Origin: a virus
Direction: 5' to 3' (one strand)
Virus record (IMG/VR): IMGVR_UViG_3300046532_002697
Location: 1-20,140 of that record
Length of the DNA stretch: 20,140 nt
Shown: positions 4,779 to 20,140 of the stretch, in pieces
Numbering within the stretch: the first letter of the stretch is position 1
Layout: every line of letters begins with the position of its first letter
Made by a program: the position numbers and the translations under genes
The notes under the pieces: generated by a model
What the model saw: the letters and a program-made list of their open reading frames with translations, nothing else
Databases searched by the model: none
Told to the model about the DNA's origin: nothing

Positions 4779-5231
4779 ATGTCTACCACTAACGAGTTCC
4801 GACTACTAATCACGGGAGGTCGTGAGTTCACCGACCGTTCAGTGATCGAACGAGCGTTGCTCGATATCGAACAGCGACCCGACGTGGTCATCCACGGCGA
4901 TACAGCCGGAGCTGATCGTATCGCAGGTGAGATCGCAGACACACACGGAATCGACGTCTGGAAGTTCCCTGCGAACTGGGCACGGTACGGCAAGTCTGCC
5001 GGACCGCGCCGGAACCACCAGATGCTCGTCGAGGGACGCCCGACGCACGTTCTAGCGTTTCCCGGAGGACGGGGAACCGAGAACATGTGCAAACAGGCTT
5101 CTAAAGCCGGGTTGCTCGTGCGTCGTATAGAGCCAAACGAGCCCGAATGGAGCGAAGACGCTCTCGAACTCGTTCATCTCTCGTCGCCCTTTGCAGATGC
5201 ATTGAATACTCCAACTATCGACAAGGACTAA
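4779..5231 (+). CDS. DUF2493 / YspA-type SLOG-fold protein
   Basis: The 150-residue product has the features of the cpYpsA-related SLOG family (DUF2493). An N-terminal strand is followed by a Gly-rich turn (LLITGGREFTD, residues 8-18), then VIHGDTAGADRIAGEIA (about 37-53) with the HGDxxGAD signature, WxxWxxYGKSAGPRRN-like (FPANWARYGKSAGPRRN), and VLAFPGGRGTENM (about 90-102). SLOG domains bind nucleotides or nucleotide-derived ligands. DUF2493 proteins are common in phages, but their role there is not established. The length is typical for the single-domain form. The next gene starts four bases after its stop, so the two are cotranscribed. Confidence 0.85.
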   Translation: MSTTNEFRLLITGGREFTDRSVIERALLDIEQRPDVVIHGDTAGADRIAGEIADTHGIDVWKFPANWARYGKSAGPRRNHQMLVEGRPTHVLAFPGGRGTENMCKQASKAGLLVRRIEPNEPEWSEDALELVHLSSPFADALNTPTIDKD

Positions 5232-9696: not shown

Positions 9697-11202
9697 ATGA
9701 AAACAGCGCAAACTCCAGCTAATAACTGGAAAGACTTTACCAAGAACGGTCGAGTACAAGAGATGGTGAACGTAGCAAGGGCTATCAAAAACCAAGGGCA
9801 AGGCATTAGCTATGCCGATTGGAAGCACACCTACGACCACAGTTTGATGGGGACAGTAAACTCTGTCGTTGTTGAGCACGATGCAAGCAACGCAGAGTGG
9901 CTTCACGCTACTATCGCCGGTCAGACCATCACGCTTGCTGAGATTGAGTATGGAAATCGCAAGAACTTCACACTGCATGACCCTCGCTTTGGTCAGAACG
10001 AGCGACAGTACAGTAGGTTAGACACAATCAACAAGGGCGTCATGCTAATGCTTGCTAAGCAGATGCACATGGAGCTCCTCTACGAAGGGACGCCAGCTGA
10101 GATTCATGACTACCAGAACGGTAGCCCAACGAACGGCACAACAGTAGACATTCAGGAATGGCGTTGGAACGACACCTACCCAGAGCCAGTAGATTACTGG
10201 GAGAACCCAGTCTCAACGAAAGCAACTAAAGCTTCTACAAAGAAGCACTTTGTTATTCCGGTCTTGCAACCAGACGAACTGGCTGCTGCTCGCTCACTGT
10301 CAGAGTTCCGAATCATCTACACCGAGTTCGCAGAGAAGCTAAAAGCTGTGTGTAAAGCACACATCAACGAGCCTATCTACTTCCAAGGTGCAGCAGGAAC
10401 AGGCAAGTCACTGATGGCTCAGGTACTTGGTGCTGAGACAGACAAGAAAGTAATCAACCGAGTTACGTTCACCGCCAAGATGGACGTAGCAATGACACTT
10501 GGCAACAAGTACCCGACCAGTATGTGGCGTGACCCTGACGGTGTTGTCGTTGCTAAGTCTGGCATCGGTGAGGACATGTCAGACCACCAGTTCTTAGGCA
10601 TTGGTCTTGACTGGCGTGACGGGGTAGTTACCAAGATGGCGAGACAGTCCGGCACTGGCGGCATGTTAGTGCTTGATGAGCTGCCAAAAGCTCCGCCAGA
10701 GTTCGTCAACAGACTGCATGAGATTCTTGAAGATGAGTTCCCTACTATGACCATCTACGAGAATGCAGAAGATCAGGCTTCAGTGAACGACGACCTATGG
10801 GTGGTAGCAACAGGCAACCCCGTTGGTGGTGGTTACTTCAACAACCCACTCGACAAAGCATTGCTTGATCGAATGAGGGTGTTCAACATCGACAAGCCTA
10901 TTGCTGACGAAGAACAGATTCTTGAAGGCTTACTGCCTAAGAAGTTCTTCGGAGAGACAACTGAGCACCTGCTACGTGCAGCTAAGACGCTCAGAGACAG
11001 CGAGGAGACAGCAATTAGTACTCGTGCCCTAATCATGGTTACTAAGAGCATCTTGAGAGGCATCGGTGTAGTCCCTGCTTTCCAGATCAACTTCTTCAAC
11101 ACACTACCGAAGGACAGAGCAGAACGTGCTGAGTCTGCTGTTCAAACACAGTTCTTCGAGGACTGGAACAAGTACGGTCCAGCAAGCAAGCTTCAGTACT
11201 AA
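9697..11202 (+). CDS. CobS/MoxR-type AAA+ ATPase
   Basis: The 501-residue protein has a unique N-terminal half (about 1-200) and a C-terminal AAA+ module. Walker A is GAAGTGKS (231-238), Walker B MLVLDE (323-328), sensor 1 VVATGNP (369-375) and an arginine-finger-like LLDRMR (389-394). GTGGMLVLDE and the insertion with DWRDGVV resemble the MoxR/CobS branch, whose members work with VWA-domain partners as chelatase-like or remodelling machines. The next gene encodes a VWA protein eight bases downstream, matching CobS-CobT pairing. CobS-like genes are known in marine phages (established knowledge), where their use in cobalamin metabolism is debated. No CobN homologue is in the window, so a metal-chelatase role is unsupported here; a remodelling ATPase is equally likely. 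AGGAGG precedes the ATG. Confidence 0.88.
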   Translation: MKTAQTPANNWKDFTKNGRVQEMVNVARAIKNQGQGISYADWKHTYDHSLMGTVNSVVVEHDASNAEWLHATIAGQTITLAEIEYGNRKNFTLHDPRFGQNERQYSRLDTINKGVMLMLAKQMHMELLYEGTPAEIHDYQNGSPTNGTTVDIQEWRWNDTYPEPVDYWENPVSTKATKASTKKHFVIPVLQPDELAAARSLSEFRIIYTEFAEKLKAVCKAHINEPIYFQGAAGTGKSLMAQVLGAETDKKVINRVTFTAKMDVAMTLGNKYPTSMWRDPDGVVVAKSGIGEDMSDHQFLGIGLDWRDGVVTKMARQSGTGGMLVLDELPKAPPEFVNRLHEILEDEFPTMTIYENAEDQASVNDDLWVVATGNPVGGGYFNNPLDKALLDRMRVFNIDKPIADEEQILEGLLPKKFFGETTEHLLRAAKTLRDSEETAISTRALIMVTKSILRGIGVVPAFQINFFNTLPKDRAERAESAVQTQFFEDWNKYGPASKLQY

Positions 11203-11210
11203 GGAGATAA

Positions 11211-13460
11211 ATGGCTAAATCAAAAACTAAATACTGGGGTCAGTTCTGGGGAAAGGCTGACGACGATGATGACTGGGGTGATTGGGAGCAAGGCGGTAAG
11301 GACGCTGGCTCTCTCGACCCCGAACGCAACAAGGGCAAGATGGGGTACATGCCCGAAGGGTGGACTGACGAACAGCGTCAAGCGATTGACCATGTAATCT
11401 GCCCTGACTGTGGCGCAACTGTGTTTGCCTCTGGCTACATAGTTCGTGACAAGTGTGACGTTTGCTGGTTCATGTTCCCCGATGCTAGTTGGAACATACC
11501 AATTAGCAAGGAAGCAGCGAAGGCAAACAAGGCTAGCCAAGGGACGCACACTGCCTATACAGGTAGCTACTCTAAGTCTCTGACCTCTTTCGCTAAGTTA
11601 GCTAGGTCAATAGTCGAACCTACTACCGACAAGGAAGATCACTTACTGTCTCGTATCCACATGGCAGAAATGCCTAACCGTAGATGGCAAGAAGAAGTAG
11701 AGAGCAATGCTAGCGGGAGCTCTAAGAGTGGTGTTCGTGACCAGACCAAGCACGTAACTAAGCAACACGCCAAGATCAAGACCAACGCCGATGAGTACCT
11801 GTCCAGCACAAGCGAGGCTTATGCCAACGAGATTGCTCAGGACATTGAGCTCTTTGCAAGGGCTCTTGAACTTGTGGTCGAAGCTAAAGGGCAGGACGGA
11901 CACGTTGATGTCGGTGATCGCACTAGCCAAGAGATAAGCGACAAGCAAGCTGACCTACGCCGCATGATTGAGGTCATGATGGGTGAGTTCGGTGCTGCTA
12001 CTGGTCACAAGATTGGGGACGACTGGTTCTTACGGGACACCACCGAAGAAGCACGTGCTATCCAAGAGCGAGCAGGTAGCCGCTACGACCAACCGATGTA
12101 CGGTGCTGCTTTGTATGGCGACGAAGGGGAAGGCTCTAGTCTCTCAGAAGTTACCTCTAAGAAATCACTAAACCTAAGTTCTGATACCGCTCAGTACCCT
12201 ACTGATGATCTTGCGAGCAGCAAGATTAGGGAGAAGATTCGTCAGGGTATCAAGAAGGCTGACGTTGCCACTGACCTAGACGCTGTAGCTACTGAGGTAG
12301 CTATGGCTAAGCAAGAAGATCGCATGACCGTGATGAAAGAACAGCTGATGCCTATCATCAGTAAGATTCTGGAAGAAGAAGGGTCAGAAGAAGTAGATCA
12401 AGAGGCTGCTTGCGACGCTATCGGTGAAGCTATGGGTGGTGAAAGCGACGACGGTAAAGAAAGAGCAGAGCCAGCCGACCGAGACCCAACCGACGGTAGT
12501 TACGAGGAAACAATGCGTGACTACATGAACGGTGTTGGTGATGAGATTCGCAAGGAACGGGAGGAACGTGCCAAGAAGAAAAGCAAGGAGGACAAGTGGA
12601 GTCAGACAGCAAAGAACATTGCTAAGGCTTACGGTCACGATTCCGGTAAGGGTTACAGTCACTTCGATGCAGTTGAACCTCTTGTTGAGTTCGCATCAAA
12701 AGCACCCAAGACAGTACCGCTGAACTTCAAGGGACAGCAGATGCTTGAAGCTATTGAGAGTGAACGCCGTGTTACTTGGGAGGAATCAGGGGATGCAACC
12801 GACCGTATGGTTGAGTTGAACTTCGGCAACCTCAAAGTATTCAGGCAAGAGGACACGTACTCACCGCAGTTAGTCATTGGTGTTGACGTGTCCGGTTCGA
12901 CTGGCTGCATACATACAGCTGGTGGCAATGACGTGTATCAAGATGTTGGCGGTCTGATGTGGGAGATAGCATCTGTTGTCTCTAGTGTTGGGTCAGAAGC
13001 AAACACCCAGCAGTACGCCTACCACAGCACACATCAAGGGTTCTTGACTGCCATTGAAGTACCAAGAGGTATGCGTCCTGTCTGCAACTGTGAGGTAATC
13101 GAGTCCTCACGTTATACATCAGGGGAAGTTCGTGAGCATGGTGGTGGTACACCTGAGTTAGCGATGCTTACCTACCTCAACGACAAGGCGCAGCAGTCAG
13201 GGGAGTTGAGCTCAACGACAGTGATACTGATTGTTGACGGTCAGCCTGATGATGAGGAAGCTTGTAAGAAAATGTCGGAGCAACTTGTTGCTGCCGGTGT
13301 TCAGTTCGGAGTGGTGGTCTGCGGTAACGATAACTACTTCGATGAGGAAGAAGAGAACTACTACTCCGCATCTGTTGCGGTGAAAGTCAGGAACTCTAGC
13401 GAGATCGACACCGCAATACCTAAGCTGATGTCTCTCATCAGGGCAAGAGGACTGGCGTAA
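11211..13460 (+). CDS. CobT-like VWA-domain protein with N-terminal zinc ribbon
   Basis: The 749-residue product begins with an acidic Asp/Trp-rich stretch (DDDDWGDWEQGG) and a zinc-ribbon-like C64-x2-C67...C82-x2-C85. A long charged, helical middle (about 150-480) is rich in Glu, Lys and Asp, as in CobT. The C-terminal VWA domain has a full MIDAS: D559-x-S561-x-S563 (DVSGS), T647 in GGGTPE and D676 in VDGQPDD. These coordinate Mg2+ in VWA adaptors. With the preceding AAA+ gene it forms a MoxR-VWA/CobS-CobT type pair, in which the VWA protein passes ATPase action to a substrate. AAGGAGAT lies before the ATG. Whether this pair acts on cobalt insertion, host proteins or phage complexes cannot be told from sequence. 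Confidence 0.85.
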   Translation: MAKSKTKYWGQFWGKADDDDDWGDWEQGGKDAGSLDPERNKGKMGYMPEGWTDEQRQAIDHVICPDCGATVFASGYIVRDKCDVCWFMFPDASWNIPISKEAAKANKASQGTHTAYTGSYSKSLTSFAKLARSIVEPTTDKEDHLLSRIHMAEMPNRRWQEEVESNASGSSKSGVRDQTKHVTKQHAKIKTNADEYLSSTSEAYANEIAQDIELFARALELVVEAKGQDGHVDVGDRTSQEISDKQADLRRMIEVMMGEFGAATGHKIGDDWFLRDTTEEARAIQERAGSRYDQPMYGAALYGDEGEGSSLSEVTSKKSLNLSSDTAQYPTDDLASSKIREKIRQGIKKADVATDLDAVATEVAMAKQEDRMTVMKEQLMPIISKILEEEGSEEVDQEAACDAIGEAMGGESDDGKERAEPADRDPTDGSYEETMRDYMNGVGDEIRKEREERAKKKSKEDKWSQTAKNIAKAYGHDSGKGYSHFDAVEPLVEFASKAPKTVPLNFKGQQMLEAIESERRVTWEESGDATDRMVELNFGNLKVFRQEDTYSPQLVIGVDVSGSTGCIHTAGGNDVYQDVGGLMWEIASVVSSVGSEANTQQYAYHSTHQGFLTAIEVPRGMRPVCNCEVIESSRYTSGEVREHGGGTPELAMLTYLNDKAQQSGELSSTTVILIVDGQPDDEEACKKMSEQLVAAGVQFGVVVCGNDNYFDEEEENYYSASVAVKVRNSSEIDTAIPKLMSLIRARGLA

Positions 13461-16789: not shown

Positions 16790-17078
16790 AGAACACATTC
16801 ACCACTGGCTATGCGAGCCACCGAACGGTGAGTGGGCAGCCGCAGTATGTAAGCATTGCGGTGAGGAGTCTAAGTTTCGCAACAGTCCTGAACACGTAAC
16901 AGCGTGGCAAAGGCGAGCTAATATCGAGAAGGGACATGGCTTGAGCAAGAGTCAGCTAAAGACTGCGCTGGATAAGAAGGGCGAGCTGATGCCTGACTAC
17001 CCACGTGAGCTTGAAAACGATATAACAAAGAAGGAACGAGTAGATGCTAAGCAAAGCACAGCTAAAGGTACGCAATAG
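16779..17078 (+). CDS. Small Cys/His protein (99 aa)
   Basis: The product begins MTTKEHIHHWLCEPPNGEW and has H8, H9, C12 and C24-x2-C27 (VCKHCG), a likely zinc site, then a charged helical tail ending DAKQSTAKGTQ. Small proteins starting with a His-Trp-Cys stretch and CxxC are common phage hypotheticals. It overlaps the preceding gene by 11 bases and the next by 35. No further function can be assigned. Confidence 0.65.
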   Translation: MTTKEHIHHWLCEPPNGEWAAAVCKHCGEESKFRNSPEHVTAWQRRANIEKGHGLSKSQLKTALDKKGELMPDYPRELENDITKKERVDAKQSTAKGTQ

Positions 17079-17580
17079 AGAGATCGTCAAACAGCTAAGG
17101 GAAACTAGTGACGATGGTAAGTTTCGCCATACCTATCAGACCATCGGTGATTTATGGGGCATAACCCGTGAGCGTGTTAGGCAGATCGGGAAGATGGGTG
17201 GCAATGCTAATCGGAATGATGCCCTCAAAGAACGAAACCAAATCACACGTGACTCTGCACCCAAGTGTGCAATAGAGCATTGCTCTAACAAGGTGAAGGT
17301 TCTTGAAACAGCTACCGTCACATACTCTACTACTGGTAGGTGCGCAGACCACGGCAGGGACGTAGTGCTTATCACCTGTGCTGAGTGTGGCAAGCAAACA
17401 GAGCGTGAAAGCTATCAAGTTCGCAGCGACCACAAGAAAAATAAGCTTCGCACCAAGCCTCAAACACAGTGGTTCTGTGACAACCACTGTCAGGGTAAGT
17501 TCATCGGCAGAGAGTACGGCTTTATTGCACACCCTGAGAACGCTATGTATTCGAAAGAGCTTGCAGATGCACTGGAGTAG
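17044..17580 (+). CDS. Sigma-region-4-like HTH plus zinc-finger DNA-binding protein
   Basis: The 178-residue product begins MLSKAQLKVRNREIVK. Residues 30-52 read TYQTIGDLWGITRERVRQIG, the pattern of the region-4 helix-turn-helix of sigma70-family factors, which reads -35 boxes. The C-terminal part has several Cys/His groups: KCAIEHCSNK, CADHG, ITCAECGK and WFCDNHCQGK, probably two zinc sites. There is no region 2, so it is not a complete sigma factor. It could be a transcription regulator or anti-repressor acting on the phage promoters. The gene lies within the overlapping small-gene run leading to the RuvC-like resolvase. Confidence 0.7.
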   Translation: MLSKAQLKVRNREIVKQLRETSDDGKFRHTYQTIGDLWGITRERVRQIGKMGGNANRNDALKERNQITRDSAPKCAIEHCSNKVKVLETATVTYSTTGRCADHGRDVVLITCAECGKQTERESYQVRSDHKKNKLRTKPQTQWFCDNHCQGKFIGREYGFIAHPENAMYSKELADALE

Positions 17581-18536: not shown

Positions 18537-18704
18537 ATGCCGATCACCGCAACTTGCAAGCACGGTCAGAAAATAGAGAGTAACTACGGCAACAACAACC
18601 ACATGTGCAGCGGCACTGTTATCCGCTGGAAGGTGTGGGGTGTAAGCGGCAGATACCTAGAAGAGTGTGAGTGCTACTGCCACGCTAGCACTGGTCACAA
18701 ATAA
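18537..18704 (+). CDS. Small Cys-rich protein (55 aa)
   Basis: The ATG at 18537 follows AAGGAAGAACAGT. The product begins MPITATCKHGQKIESNYGN, has HMCSGT and ends LEECECYCHASTGHK: five Cys and four His in 55 residues, a likely zinc site. The CECYCH ending echoes the CKCECH of the 17567 protein. Its 3' end overlaps the end of the opposing 18685-18774 gene by 20 bases. Confidence 0.6.
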   Translation: MPITATCKHGQKIESNYGNNNHMCSGTVIRWKVWGVSGRYLEECECYCHASTGHK

Positions 18705-18774
18705 AAATACCGAACCACAGCACAGTTGCATAGACTAGTGCTAGCCACACTACTGGCATCCACCCTCTCATCAT
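18685..18774 (-). CDS. Tiny membrane protein at the end of the tatC operon (29 aa)
   Basis: The product MMRGWMPVVWLALVYATVLW continues FGIFICDQC: essentially one transmembrane helix. The ATG at 18774 overlaps the TGA of the previous tiny membrane gene (TGATG). It is the last member of the minus-strand tatC operon and converges on the plus-strand 18537 gene. Such proteins are easily missed but the chain of overlapping starts and stops supports it. Role unknown. Confidence 0.45.
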   Translation of the reverse strand: MMRGWMPVVWLALVYATVLWFGIFICDQC

Positions 18775-18860
18775 CGCAGCAGCCACACAGCAAGCGTCAC
18801 AGTGACCCAGACAGCCATAGCAATACGGTTCGTCCACTTGTTGTGTATGAAGCCCTTCAT
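18771..18860 (-). CDS. Tiny membrane protein directly after tatC (29 aa)
   Basis: The product MKGFIHNKWTNRIAMAVWVT continues VTLAVWLLR, a basic N-terminus and a single hydrophobic helix. Its ATG overlaps the tatC stop as TAATG, so it is translationally coupled to tatC, and its own stop overlaps the next start as TGATG. The basic N-terminus predicts the helix has its amino end in the cytoplasm. It could be a regulator of TatC or a lysis-type peptide; neither is shown. Confidence 0.5.
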   Translation of the reverse strand: MKGFIHNKWTNRIAMAVWVTVTLAVWLLR

Positions 18861-19714
18861 TAGAACTTGTTGTTGTCCTTGAACTTGTTGCGAATCTTGT
18901 GAACCATCACAACAGGTCGGCTCACGACCCACGCTAGTAATACCTGCCCTTTCTCAACCATAGGCAGGTCAGCAAAGTAGTTCCCCTCTTCTCTGTGCGT
19001 AAGCCAGCTAGCAAGCAACCCTATTTCATATAGCATCAACATCGGGATGGCTACGAGCAGGGTAAGAGTCCCGTCTAGTGACGGGGTGATAAGGGCAGCG
19101 AAGATAAAGGCTGTCGGGATAACCCACTTGCGTAGCGTACTAGCCCTTGCATATGAGACAAGCCTGAACCTAGCCAGCAACTGCATCACAACAGGCAGCT
19201 CAAACGACACACCTATCCAGAAGATCAACGACAGTAGTAGGGCTAGGTACTCAGTGAGCAAGATTACTGGGATGGCTACGCCTTCACCAAACGTCAGCAA
19301 GAACTGCAAACTCACCGGCATCATCACCCAGAACACGAACGATGCACCTAGCAAAAACATTCCGATGGACAGGGCTGTGTACGTTGTTACAAACAGCCAG
19401 AAGCGTCGGGGAACGAAGGGCTTGAGCATACTTAGTATGCCCACGATCAACACAGGTAGTGCTAGAACCTGCCCACCCTTCATAGACAGGCTCAGCGTAG
19501 CCCCGAACATATCTGGGACACCTGTGAATATGGGTAAGCCTCCCTCGAAGGGGGATAGCTTGTCTTCTGCGGGGGCAAGCAGGAAAGCAAACACCTCTGG
19601 ATGCCACCAAAAGGTAGCACCTGCCCCAATACTCCAGACTAAGATCGTAAGGAATACAGTGTTCCGAAACCGCTGACCGAACTTATACCCCCGCTCGTAA
19701 GCGGAGAGACTCAA
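18860..19714 (-). CDS. tatC: Divergent TatC-family translocase subunit
   Basis: The 284-residue polytopic protein begins at TTG. It has six hydrophobic segments (about 19-37, 80-97, 105-140, 148-180, 198-210 and 216-238), as in TatC. Family marks in the second half are clear: GASFVFWVMMPVSLQFL (about 123-139), IGVSFELPVV with E172, LRKWVIPTAFIFAALITP, TPSLD (210-214) and PMLMLYEIG (224-232). By hand alignment to E. coli TatC, the N-terminal HLxELRxR motif is replaced by YKFGQRFRN and the HERR motif by FVPRR (101-104). Both twin-arginine-binding glutamates therefore appear lost. TatC is the signal-peptide receptor of the Tat pathway, so this phage copy may have an altered ligand. It is three bases downstream of a tiny membrane gene and overlaps another by TAATG. 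Confidence 0.88.
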   Translation of the reverse strand: MSLSAYERGYKFGQRFRNTVFLTILVWSIGAGATFWWHPEVFAFLLAPAEDKLSPFEGGLPIFTGVPDMFGATLSLSMKGGQVLALPVLIVGILSMLKPFVPRRFWLFVTTYTALSIGMFLLGASFVFWVMMPVSLQFLLTFGEGVAIPVILLTEYLALLLSLIFWIGVSFELPVVMQLLARFRLVSYARASTLRKWVIPTAFIFAALITPSLDGTLTLLVAIPMLMLYEIGLLASWLTHREEGNYFADLPMVEKGQVLLAWVVSRPVVMVHKIRNKFKDNNKF

Positions 19715-19717
19715 AAG

Positions 19718-19840
19718 CTATGCGCCTTTGTCGGTCTTATCTTTACTCTTTGTACCGCTCATCATTCCGTTGATTGCTGTGTAACCTAGTACAGCTATGG
19801 CAATAACGGCGATGCCGATAATGATTGGGTCGTTTGGCAT
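19718..19840 (-). CDS. Tiny membrane protein upstream of tatC (40 aa)
   Basis: The product MPNDPIIIGIAVIAIAVLGY continues TAINGMMSGTKSKDKTDKGA: one transmembrane helix (about 5-19), a short hinge and a soluble charged tail, the outline of a miniature TatA/TatE. It lacks the conserved FG hinge of TatA and its amphipathic helix is short, so the assignment is speculative. AAGAGGG precedes the ATG. Its stop lies three bases before tatC's TTG start, making coupling likely. Confidence 0.6.
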   Translation of the reverse strand: MPNDPIIIGIAVIAIAVLGYTAINGMMSGTKSKDKTDKGA

Positions 19841-19851
19841 ATAGAGCCCTC

Positions 19852-19956
19852 TTATTTTTTCTTGATGCTCCCTATGTTGAGAACACCTAACTTGTTTATC
19901 TTACCGAAAATATTTCGGCGAACACTAATAACTGAACCATCAAAGCTCTTCATCAT
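19852..19956 (-). CDS. Small basic protein (34 aa)
   Basis: The product reads MMKSFDGSVISVRRNIFGKI then NKLGVLNIGSIKKK, strongly basic and without a membrane segment. AAGAGG lies immediately before the first ATG, so the second ATG at 19953 may be used. The start overlaps the 19940-20113 gene by 17 bases. A twin-Arg pair in SVRRNIFG is present but no hydrophobic region follows. Confidence 0.4.
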   Translation of the reverse strand: MMKSFDGSVISVRRNIFGKINKLGVLNIGSIKKK

Positions 19957-20113
19957 CCCTCTTGTGTTTATCAGAGTGAACACTGTTACGAAATATTATT
20001 CCCTCAACAGTGTTACCTAATTCAAAGCGAGCGATCTTCACAGCTTGAACAACCGTGGCTGCCCCAACGATTGAACCGATGAAGTACTTGAGCATCCAGC
20101 CGAGCGGGTGCAT
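19940..20113 (-). CDS. Small membrane-associated protein (57 aa)
   Basis: The product begins MHPLGWMLKYFIGSIVGAAT, with one moderately hydrophobic helix (about 8-24), followed by a charged soluble tail ending SDKHKRDDEEL. The ATG overlaps the stop of the partial upstream frame as TAATG. It is an upstream member of the operon leading to tatC. Its charged tail and single span resemble small phage membrane proteins, but no function is assigned. Confidence 0.5.
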   Translation of the reverse strand: MHPLGWMLKYFIGSIVGAATVVQAVKIARFELGNTVEGIIFRNSVHSDKHKRDDEEL

Positions 20114-20140
20114 TAGTCACGCCTCTTGCGACTGAGCAGC
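20113..20140 (-). CDS. C-terminal end of a gene entering from the right
   Basis: Only the last nine residues or so are in the window, ending LLSRKRRD before the TAA at 20115-20113, which overlaps the ATG of the next gene as TAATG. This coupling is the reason to call it. The gene's identity cannot be told. Confidence 0.35.

Follow-up and report, generated by a model that had tools for sequence, protein, structure and literature searches.

To our knowledge, TatC reads the twin-arginine signal in every Tat system, and an initial annotation had picked out a phage gene for a TatC that appeared to lack both glutamates implicated in binding this signal. What a phage might do with such a protein is the question raised by this locus. 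The stretch of DNA analysed (hereafter the window) is a 20140-base virus record. Besides the large and small subunits of terminase, it encodes a MoxR-type AAA protein, a Holliday junction resolvase, and an annealing protein of the RecT type. Its minus strand carries the terminase genes and the TatC gene, its plus strand the replication genes; TatC adjoins the virion genes without a gap, at the 3' end of their operon, and the replication operon lies beyond it. Lysis genes of tailed phages are commonly found between these two operons.

Several other genes of these phages were noted in passing. The MoxR-type AAA ATPase (9697-11202, plus strand; Pfam AAA_5 and Mg_chelatase) is followed by a gene for a 749 aa protein (11211-13460, plus strand) that is possibly VWA-like by eye and had no Pfam hit, and a similar pair occurs in two other phage contigs, G002 and G003. 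The window also encodes a YspA-type SLOG protein (4779-5231, plus strand; Pfam YAcAr) and a protein with a weak match to sigma-70 region 4 (17044-17580, plus strand; 8.7e-5, below the Pfam cut-off). A transporter of the Vut_1 family is phage-encoded in contig G016 (23564-24073, minus strand).

A TatC homologue in phages

The ORF at 18860..19714 (minus strand; 284 aa from a TTG start) had been called a phage TatC, and both profile and structure bore this out. Pfam TatC (PF00902) matched residues 15-224 with an E-value of 2e-34 and 119.7 bits, above the gathering cut-off of 25.1 bits, and Aquifex aeolicus TatC (4b4a) matched the protein at 1.6e-20 by phmmer. AlphaFold modelling, which the initial annotation had proposed, returned a TatC fold: the AlphaFold2 model (mean pLDDT 88.8, pTM 0.77) was matched by Foldseek to 4b4a, 9e02, and 9e01 at E-values of 1e-7 to 1e-9, its strong PDB matches were TatC structures only, and the TM-scores of the predicted fold to the TatC targets were 0.66-0.74. 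By Pfam and predicted fold, the ORF is a TatC homologue. None of the viral TatCs scored reached the curated cut-off of the NCBIfam TatC equivalog, TIGR00945 (132.7 bits); the window protein scored 103.8 and other viral branches 81-125.5, vs. 206 for a cellular control. The viral TatCs are under purifying selection, with dN/dS values of 0.10-0.21 between pairs (0.15-0.21 for pairs with the window). An unnamed PHROG family, phrog_36238, matched viral TatC (E-values of 6e-10 to 2e-18), and one viral protein with a TatC fold, UPI0003282282, was present in the BFVD library.

The supposition that a TatC is unusual in a phage was also supported. No description of a phage TatC was found in the literature searched, and the TatC hits that we inspected in INPHARED look bacterial, lying in bacterial tat operons or beside Bacteroidota-like neighbours and keeping Glu where read. 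CAKLQH020000005, CAKLQH020000024, AFYI01000004, and others are bacterial tat operons given phage names or placed among the phage records, i.e., contamination of that collection. In one bacterial-looking contig filed as phage (L228; MT837480.1), a Cys-rich repeat peptide with a Tat-like leader (SRREFF; 2222-2746) adjoins a radical-SAM-like gene and tatC.

Scanning viral contigs twice yielded 16 with close TatC relatives, and later scans added further branches; relatives were gathered by pattern-seeded scans, and their number is not a census. A first scan of genome contigs with the phage alignment returned no relative. In a tree of 81 TatCs (a quick search, rooted at the midpoint only), a branch with an SH-aLRT of 100 set the 13 viral sequences apart from every one of the 68 cellular rows, Chloroflexota included; its stem measured 1.07 changes per column. 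The nesting inside a host clade that is expected of a recently captured host gene (AMG) was not seen among these 68 cellular TatCs under the midpoint root. Viral and host TatCs were ~30-37% identical, with none above 37% among the matches listed in 301 Chloroflexota genomes.

Loss of signal-binding residues

Residues were numbered as in Salmonella TatC, following an alignment of 16 viral and 84 cellular TatCs that included Salmonella and other TatCs. The predicted loss of E15 and E103 proved stronger than had been stated, since it extends to 16/16 viral sequences vs. 0/84 cellular ones, and no alignment with the TatC family restored Glu at either position; a third signal-peptide residue that the prediction had overlooked, F94, was found to be lost as well. 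The E15 column of the viral TatCs held R in 14 of the 16, Q in one, and Y in one; that of F94 held M (11), L (4), or D (1); and that of E103 held F (11), W (3), Q (1), or H (1), such that all three residues were replaced in every viral sequence. Among the cellular TatCs, E15 was E in 74/84, F94 was F or Y in 84/84, and E103 was E in 80/84, and, allowing for a one-column shift, every one had an acidic residue in at least one of the two glutamate columns. Placement of the E103 column is trusted because one branch (L173) aligns there without gaps (VPPQQRRF vs. LYKHERRL) and gives a change from E to Q. The weak points of the E15 claim are L162, which has Glu one position ahead of that column, and L174, for which the E15 column is uncertain because the N-terminus is short. 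In the Planctomycetota TatCs L064, L065, L070, L079, L085, L087, and L089, EVLR or EILR stands in place of EELR, with V or I at E15 and Glu one position earlier.

Other TatC residues were retained. R17, P48, and D211 were present in all 16 viral TatCs, and the window protein keeps the equivalents of these and of E170, T208, and E227; in the L130-L132 clade the equivalents of E170 and E227 are gone too. In the polar cluster on TMH5-6 defined for TatA/TatB binding (PMC10197872), T208 was T or S in 16/16 and Q215 was T in 14, Q in one, and A in one. A double F94A/E103A change in E. coli was reported to block signal-peptide binding (PMC5102672), and the best reading of the viral branch is that it has ceased to act as a twin-arginine receptor.

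A conserved micro-gene cassette

The larger finding is a cassette of micro-genes around TatC that had gone unnoticed in the initial annotation. In the window its order is B-C-D-TatC-E-F, syntenic and closing the late operon at its 3' end, with all genes on the minus strand; the TM segments and topology of the micro-proteins were judged by eye from sequence. Gene A is represented in the frame translation by its C-terminal end (LLSRKRRD; 20114..20140), its remainder lying beyond the contig end; in relatives it encodes 96-124 aa, with an amphipathic stretch at the C-terminus and, in most of them, a high Lys content. Gene B (19940..20113; 57 aa, MHPLGWMLKYFIGSIVGAATVVQAVKIA...) has a single predicted TM. 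It was 79-87% conserved in close relatives and 43-46% in L130-L132, where the gene order is unchanged, had dN/dS values mostly <=0.25, and across the main branches keeps a length of ~55 aa and one predicted TM. Gene C (19852..19956; 34 aa), which overlaps gene B, is basic and contains VRRNIFGKINK; it was found at ~34 aa in all cassettes read, fused to B in L173. Gene D (19718..19840; 40 aa, MPNDPIIIGIAVIAIAVLGYTAING...) combines a single predicted TM with a basic C-terminus, was 80-95% identical in close relatives (dN/dS 0.03-0.18), and has 40-47 aa and one predicted TM across the main branches. Gene E (18771..18860; 29 aa, MKGFIHNKWTNRIAMAVWVTVTLAVWLLR), also with a single predicted TM, has a start that overlaps the TatC stop (TAATG) and is present in L005 too. 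The start of gene F (18685..18771; 28 aa, MRGWMPVVWLALVYATVLWFGIFICDQC) overlaps the end of gene E in turn, and its product has a single predicted TM and a CxxC end.

Aligned members of gene F (n = 10) have 28-33 aa with an invariant Y, an invariant G, and the C-terminal CxxC; the L001 copy was entered without its second residue. The gene F pattern matched once per phage genome where present, near TatC and in many cassettes, and gave 0 matches in 20 sets of shuffled sequence and 0 in 590 kb of cellular loci. The copy in G003 sits on the opposite strand, and no copy lies near TatC in G002 and L173. Overall, the order A-B-C-D-TatC was preserved at 40-47% identity; L174, the second TatC of contig G015, has a different upstream neighbour.

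Known identities were sought for these micro-proteins. Neither B nor D gave a TatA or TatB hit in Pfam or NCBIfam, and hhalign of D against the TatA profile returned a probability of 1.9%, which speaks against D being TatA by sequence. Gene C was considered as a Tat signal peptide and rejected, since RR occurs in most members but a hydrophobic stretch does not, and L130 has RQ. Reading the locus as a defence system was dropped as well, there being no PADLOC hit.

The cassette is shared by phages that otherwise differ greatly. Terminase and portal were only 24-38% alike among TatC-bearing contigs, complete genomes among them, even between phages with TatCs 75-88% alike. The window and G002 were 75% identical in TatC, 88% in D, and 82% in B, vs. 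38% in terminase and 27% in portal, and the window and G001 were 88% identical in TatC vs. 24% in terminase; in both comparisons the cassette was far more conserved than the rest of the phage genome. Very recent, identical transfer of the cassette is spoken against by TatC dS values of 0.3-1.4 in the pairs tested. The TerL neighbours of the window were fragments only. Contigs G007, G008, G009, L128, L129, and the window itself break off inside the cassette, which fits an assembly break at shared sequence. One contig of 64.6 kb, G015, holds two different viral TatC cassettes, with TatC at 18897-19715 and near 60.3 kb, and may be two phages joined or one phage with two systems.

Probable host and searches for lysis genes

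A VTT (DedA-like) gene adjoins TatC in G002 (35723-36376, plus strand) and L173 (6911-7474, minus strand), convergent to it in both, and is carried by the G005 contig as well. The window has no VTT gene; all viral contigs found with one (4/4) also hold TatC. The VTT proteins of G002 and L173 were 82% identical. Matches to the VTT protein were found at an E-value of 1e-5 or better in 129 of 197 genomes from the class of a SAR202 genome, and at 1e-10 in 0/198 Actinomycetota and 0/299 Pseudomonadota genomes; the best match, at 47% identity, came from a Dehalococcoidia MAG of Lake Baikal (genome of L040). The cellular TatCs closest to viral TatC are those of Chloroflexota, and 270 of the 301 Chloroflexota genomes had a TatC match. 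Since VTT and TatC are both closest to Chloroflexota, these two genes point to a host of the SAR202/Dehalococcoidia type for this group of marine viruses. SAR202 genomes have been reported to lack peptidoglycan synthesis genes (PMC6306507); nothing relevant on SAR202 phages was found in the literature searched. E. coli mutants in DedA are reported to be poor exporters of amidases that depend on Tat (Sikdar & Doerrler 2010, cited in PMC6849406).

Searches with Pfam and PHROGs found no endolysin, holin, or spanin family, nor any family of peptidoglycan-degrading enzymes, among the called proteins of G002 and G016, which are complete or near-complete genomes (for G016, the PHROG result covers the leading 25 of its 36 families); ORF calling was simple and greedy, and profile searches miss diverged lysis proteins. 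A scan for predicted Tat signals, suggested by the initial annotation, found no credible twin-arginine signal on the ORFs of eleven phage contigs, some of them partial.

Proposed function

The most likely explanation, to which we assign a probability of roughly 0.38, is that the cassette encodes a Tat-derived late membrane complex that is not a twin-arginine receptor and serves host lysis or egress. Lysis or egress is the best single reading because of the position at the operon end, the single-TM micro-proteins (B, D, E, and F adjoin TatC there, their TMs predicted from sequence), the lack of a lysis enzyme in profile searches, and a probable host reported to be without peptidoglycan genes; among the functions that the initial annotation had put forward (a different ligand, altered host Tat traffic, exclusion, or lysis), this context favours a late membrane role of such a kind. 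Viral TatC would be the largest subunit of a membrane assembly to which B, D, E, and F contribute one TM each, with the basic proteins A and C on its cytoplasmic side. Expression of the assembly would be late, from the 3' end of the operon for virion genes, and its target would be the cytoplasmic membrane in a Chloroflexota (SAR202/Dehalococcoidia-type) host, where a Tat-like oligomer might open or thin the membrane without a signal peptide and so bring about lysis or egress. An endolysin would not be needed, since the host is reported to be without peptidoglycan genes. We infer complex formation, topology, late timing, host, membrane opening, and lysis, as we do the step from a signal-blind TatC complex to membrane opening. 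Counting against lysis, profile searches could overlook an endolysin or holin that has diverged, the conserved TatC fold and many of its residues would fit a working translocase too, and the host was assigned from gene similarity only, with the viral clade outside the Chloroflexota TatCs. Lipid or PMF homeostasis would account for the DedA-like neighbour no less well than lysis.

We rank lysis or egress ahead of a translocase for clients that lack the twin-arginine signal, of interference with host Tat, and of a virion or entry component, in that order. As a dedicated translocase or insertase, viral TatC would work with D (perhaps B) in place of TatA on a phage or host client without a twin-arginine signal. 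Retention of the TatC fold and of D211, R17, and P48, the strong purifying selection, the predicted TatA-like orientation of D, and the L131-clade D, in which the TM is followed by a charged segment (RLYKRFEARAVANAEKK), all agree with this, and host TatA could serve as the partner of viral TatC. However, D has no TatA similarity (hhalign 1.9%; no TatA hit in Pfam or NCBIfam), the signal-binding residues are lost, Q215 is T in 14/16, and no candidate client was found on the ORFs of the eleven phage contigs, some partial, and we consider a translocase unlikely.

We are more doubtful that viral TatC co-assembles with host TatA/B/C and thereby blocks or redirects traffic or excludes other phages. 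The likely hosts own a TatC (270/301 genomes match), TatC is an obligate oligomer (PMC5102672), and a receptor unable to bind signals could poison such oligomers; yet the dominant-negative E. coli TatC variants tested still bind substrate (PMC5102672), viral and host TatCs are very diverged (~30-37%), the gene lies among late genes, and the conserved micro-gene cassette would be left unexplained. Less probable again is that TatC and the small TM proteins reside in the particle, or in the membrane, for passage of DNA. The genes do follow on from the virion genes without a gap, at the end of that operon, but these are tailed phages (terminase, portal, capsid), and polytopic membrane proteins are not usual in tailed-phage particles. 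Finally, common cellular gene though TatC is, the reading that misassembly or mis-binning put an ordinary host tatC into the contig, which the initial annotation had named as one of two findings that would undo its claim, has practically no chance of being correct and is ruled out by tree, synteny, and complete genomes: the cassette occurs in at least 16 viral contigs of several lineages, two of them with exact terminal repeats (127 bp in G016, 95 bp in G004), G002 is probably complete since its end genes overlap in near-identical sequence, the viral TatCs form one clade, and no relative exceeds 37% identity among the matches listed in 301 Chloroflexota genomes.

Comparison with known systems

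It is possible, if doubtful, that a signal-blind TatC core and single-TM micro-proteins, one of them CxxC-ended, make up a phage-evolved machine for lysis or egress where there is no peptidoglycan. If so, it would represent a novel type of lysis strategy; no earlier Tat homologue, as far as we know, has been shown to act in anything but transport that depends on a signal peptide. A TatC lineage that has lost the site, kept the fold, and, across very different phages, is accompanied by its own micro-proteins provides a natural experiment for telling the parts of Tat that serve recognition from those that serve membrane opening. The finding also bears on how phages leave bacteria reported to be without peptidoglycan genes, such as SAR202.

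Viral TatC resembles the TatC of the Tat translocase (E. coli; A. aeolicus 4b4a; the 2025 TatBC/TatAC cryo-EM structures 9e01, 9e02, and 9e07) in its Pfam domain, predicted fold, R17, P48, and D211. It differs in being without E15, F94, and E103, in scoring below the TIGR00945 cut-off, and in having mostly T at Q215; in addition, its cassette has no TatA or TatB gene by sequence, and its neighbours are new micro-proteins. Two further likenesses are to phrog_36238, which matches viral TatC and has no named function, and to DedA/VTT proteins, by way of the VTT gene beside TatC in the G002, L173, and G005 contigs but not in the window. With phage lysis cassettes (holin, endolysin, spanin), the viral TatC cassette shares a place at the end of the virion operon and overlapping genes for small TM proteins. 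In contrast to them, it comes with no endolysin or spanin family that we found, its probable host is reported to be without peptidoglycan genes, and its main component is a TatC homologue.
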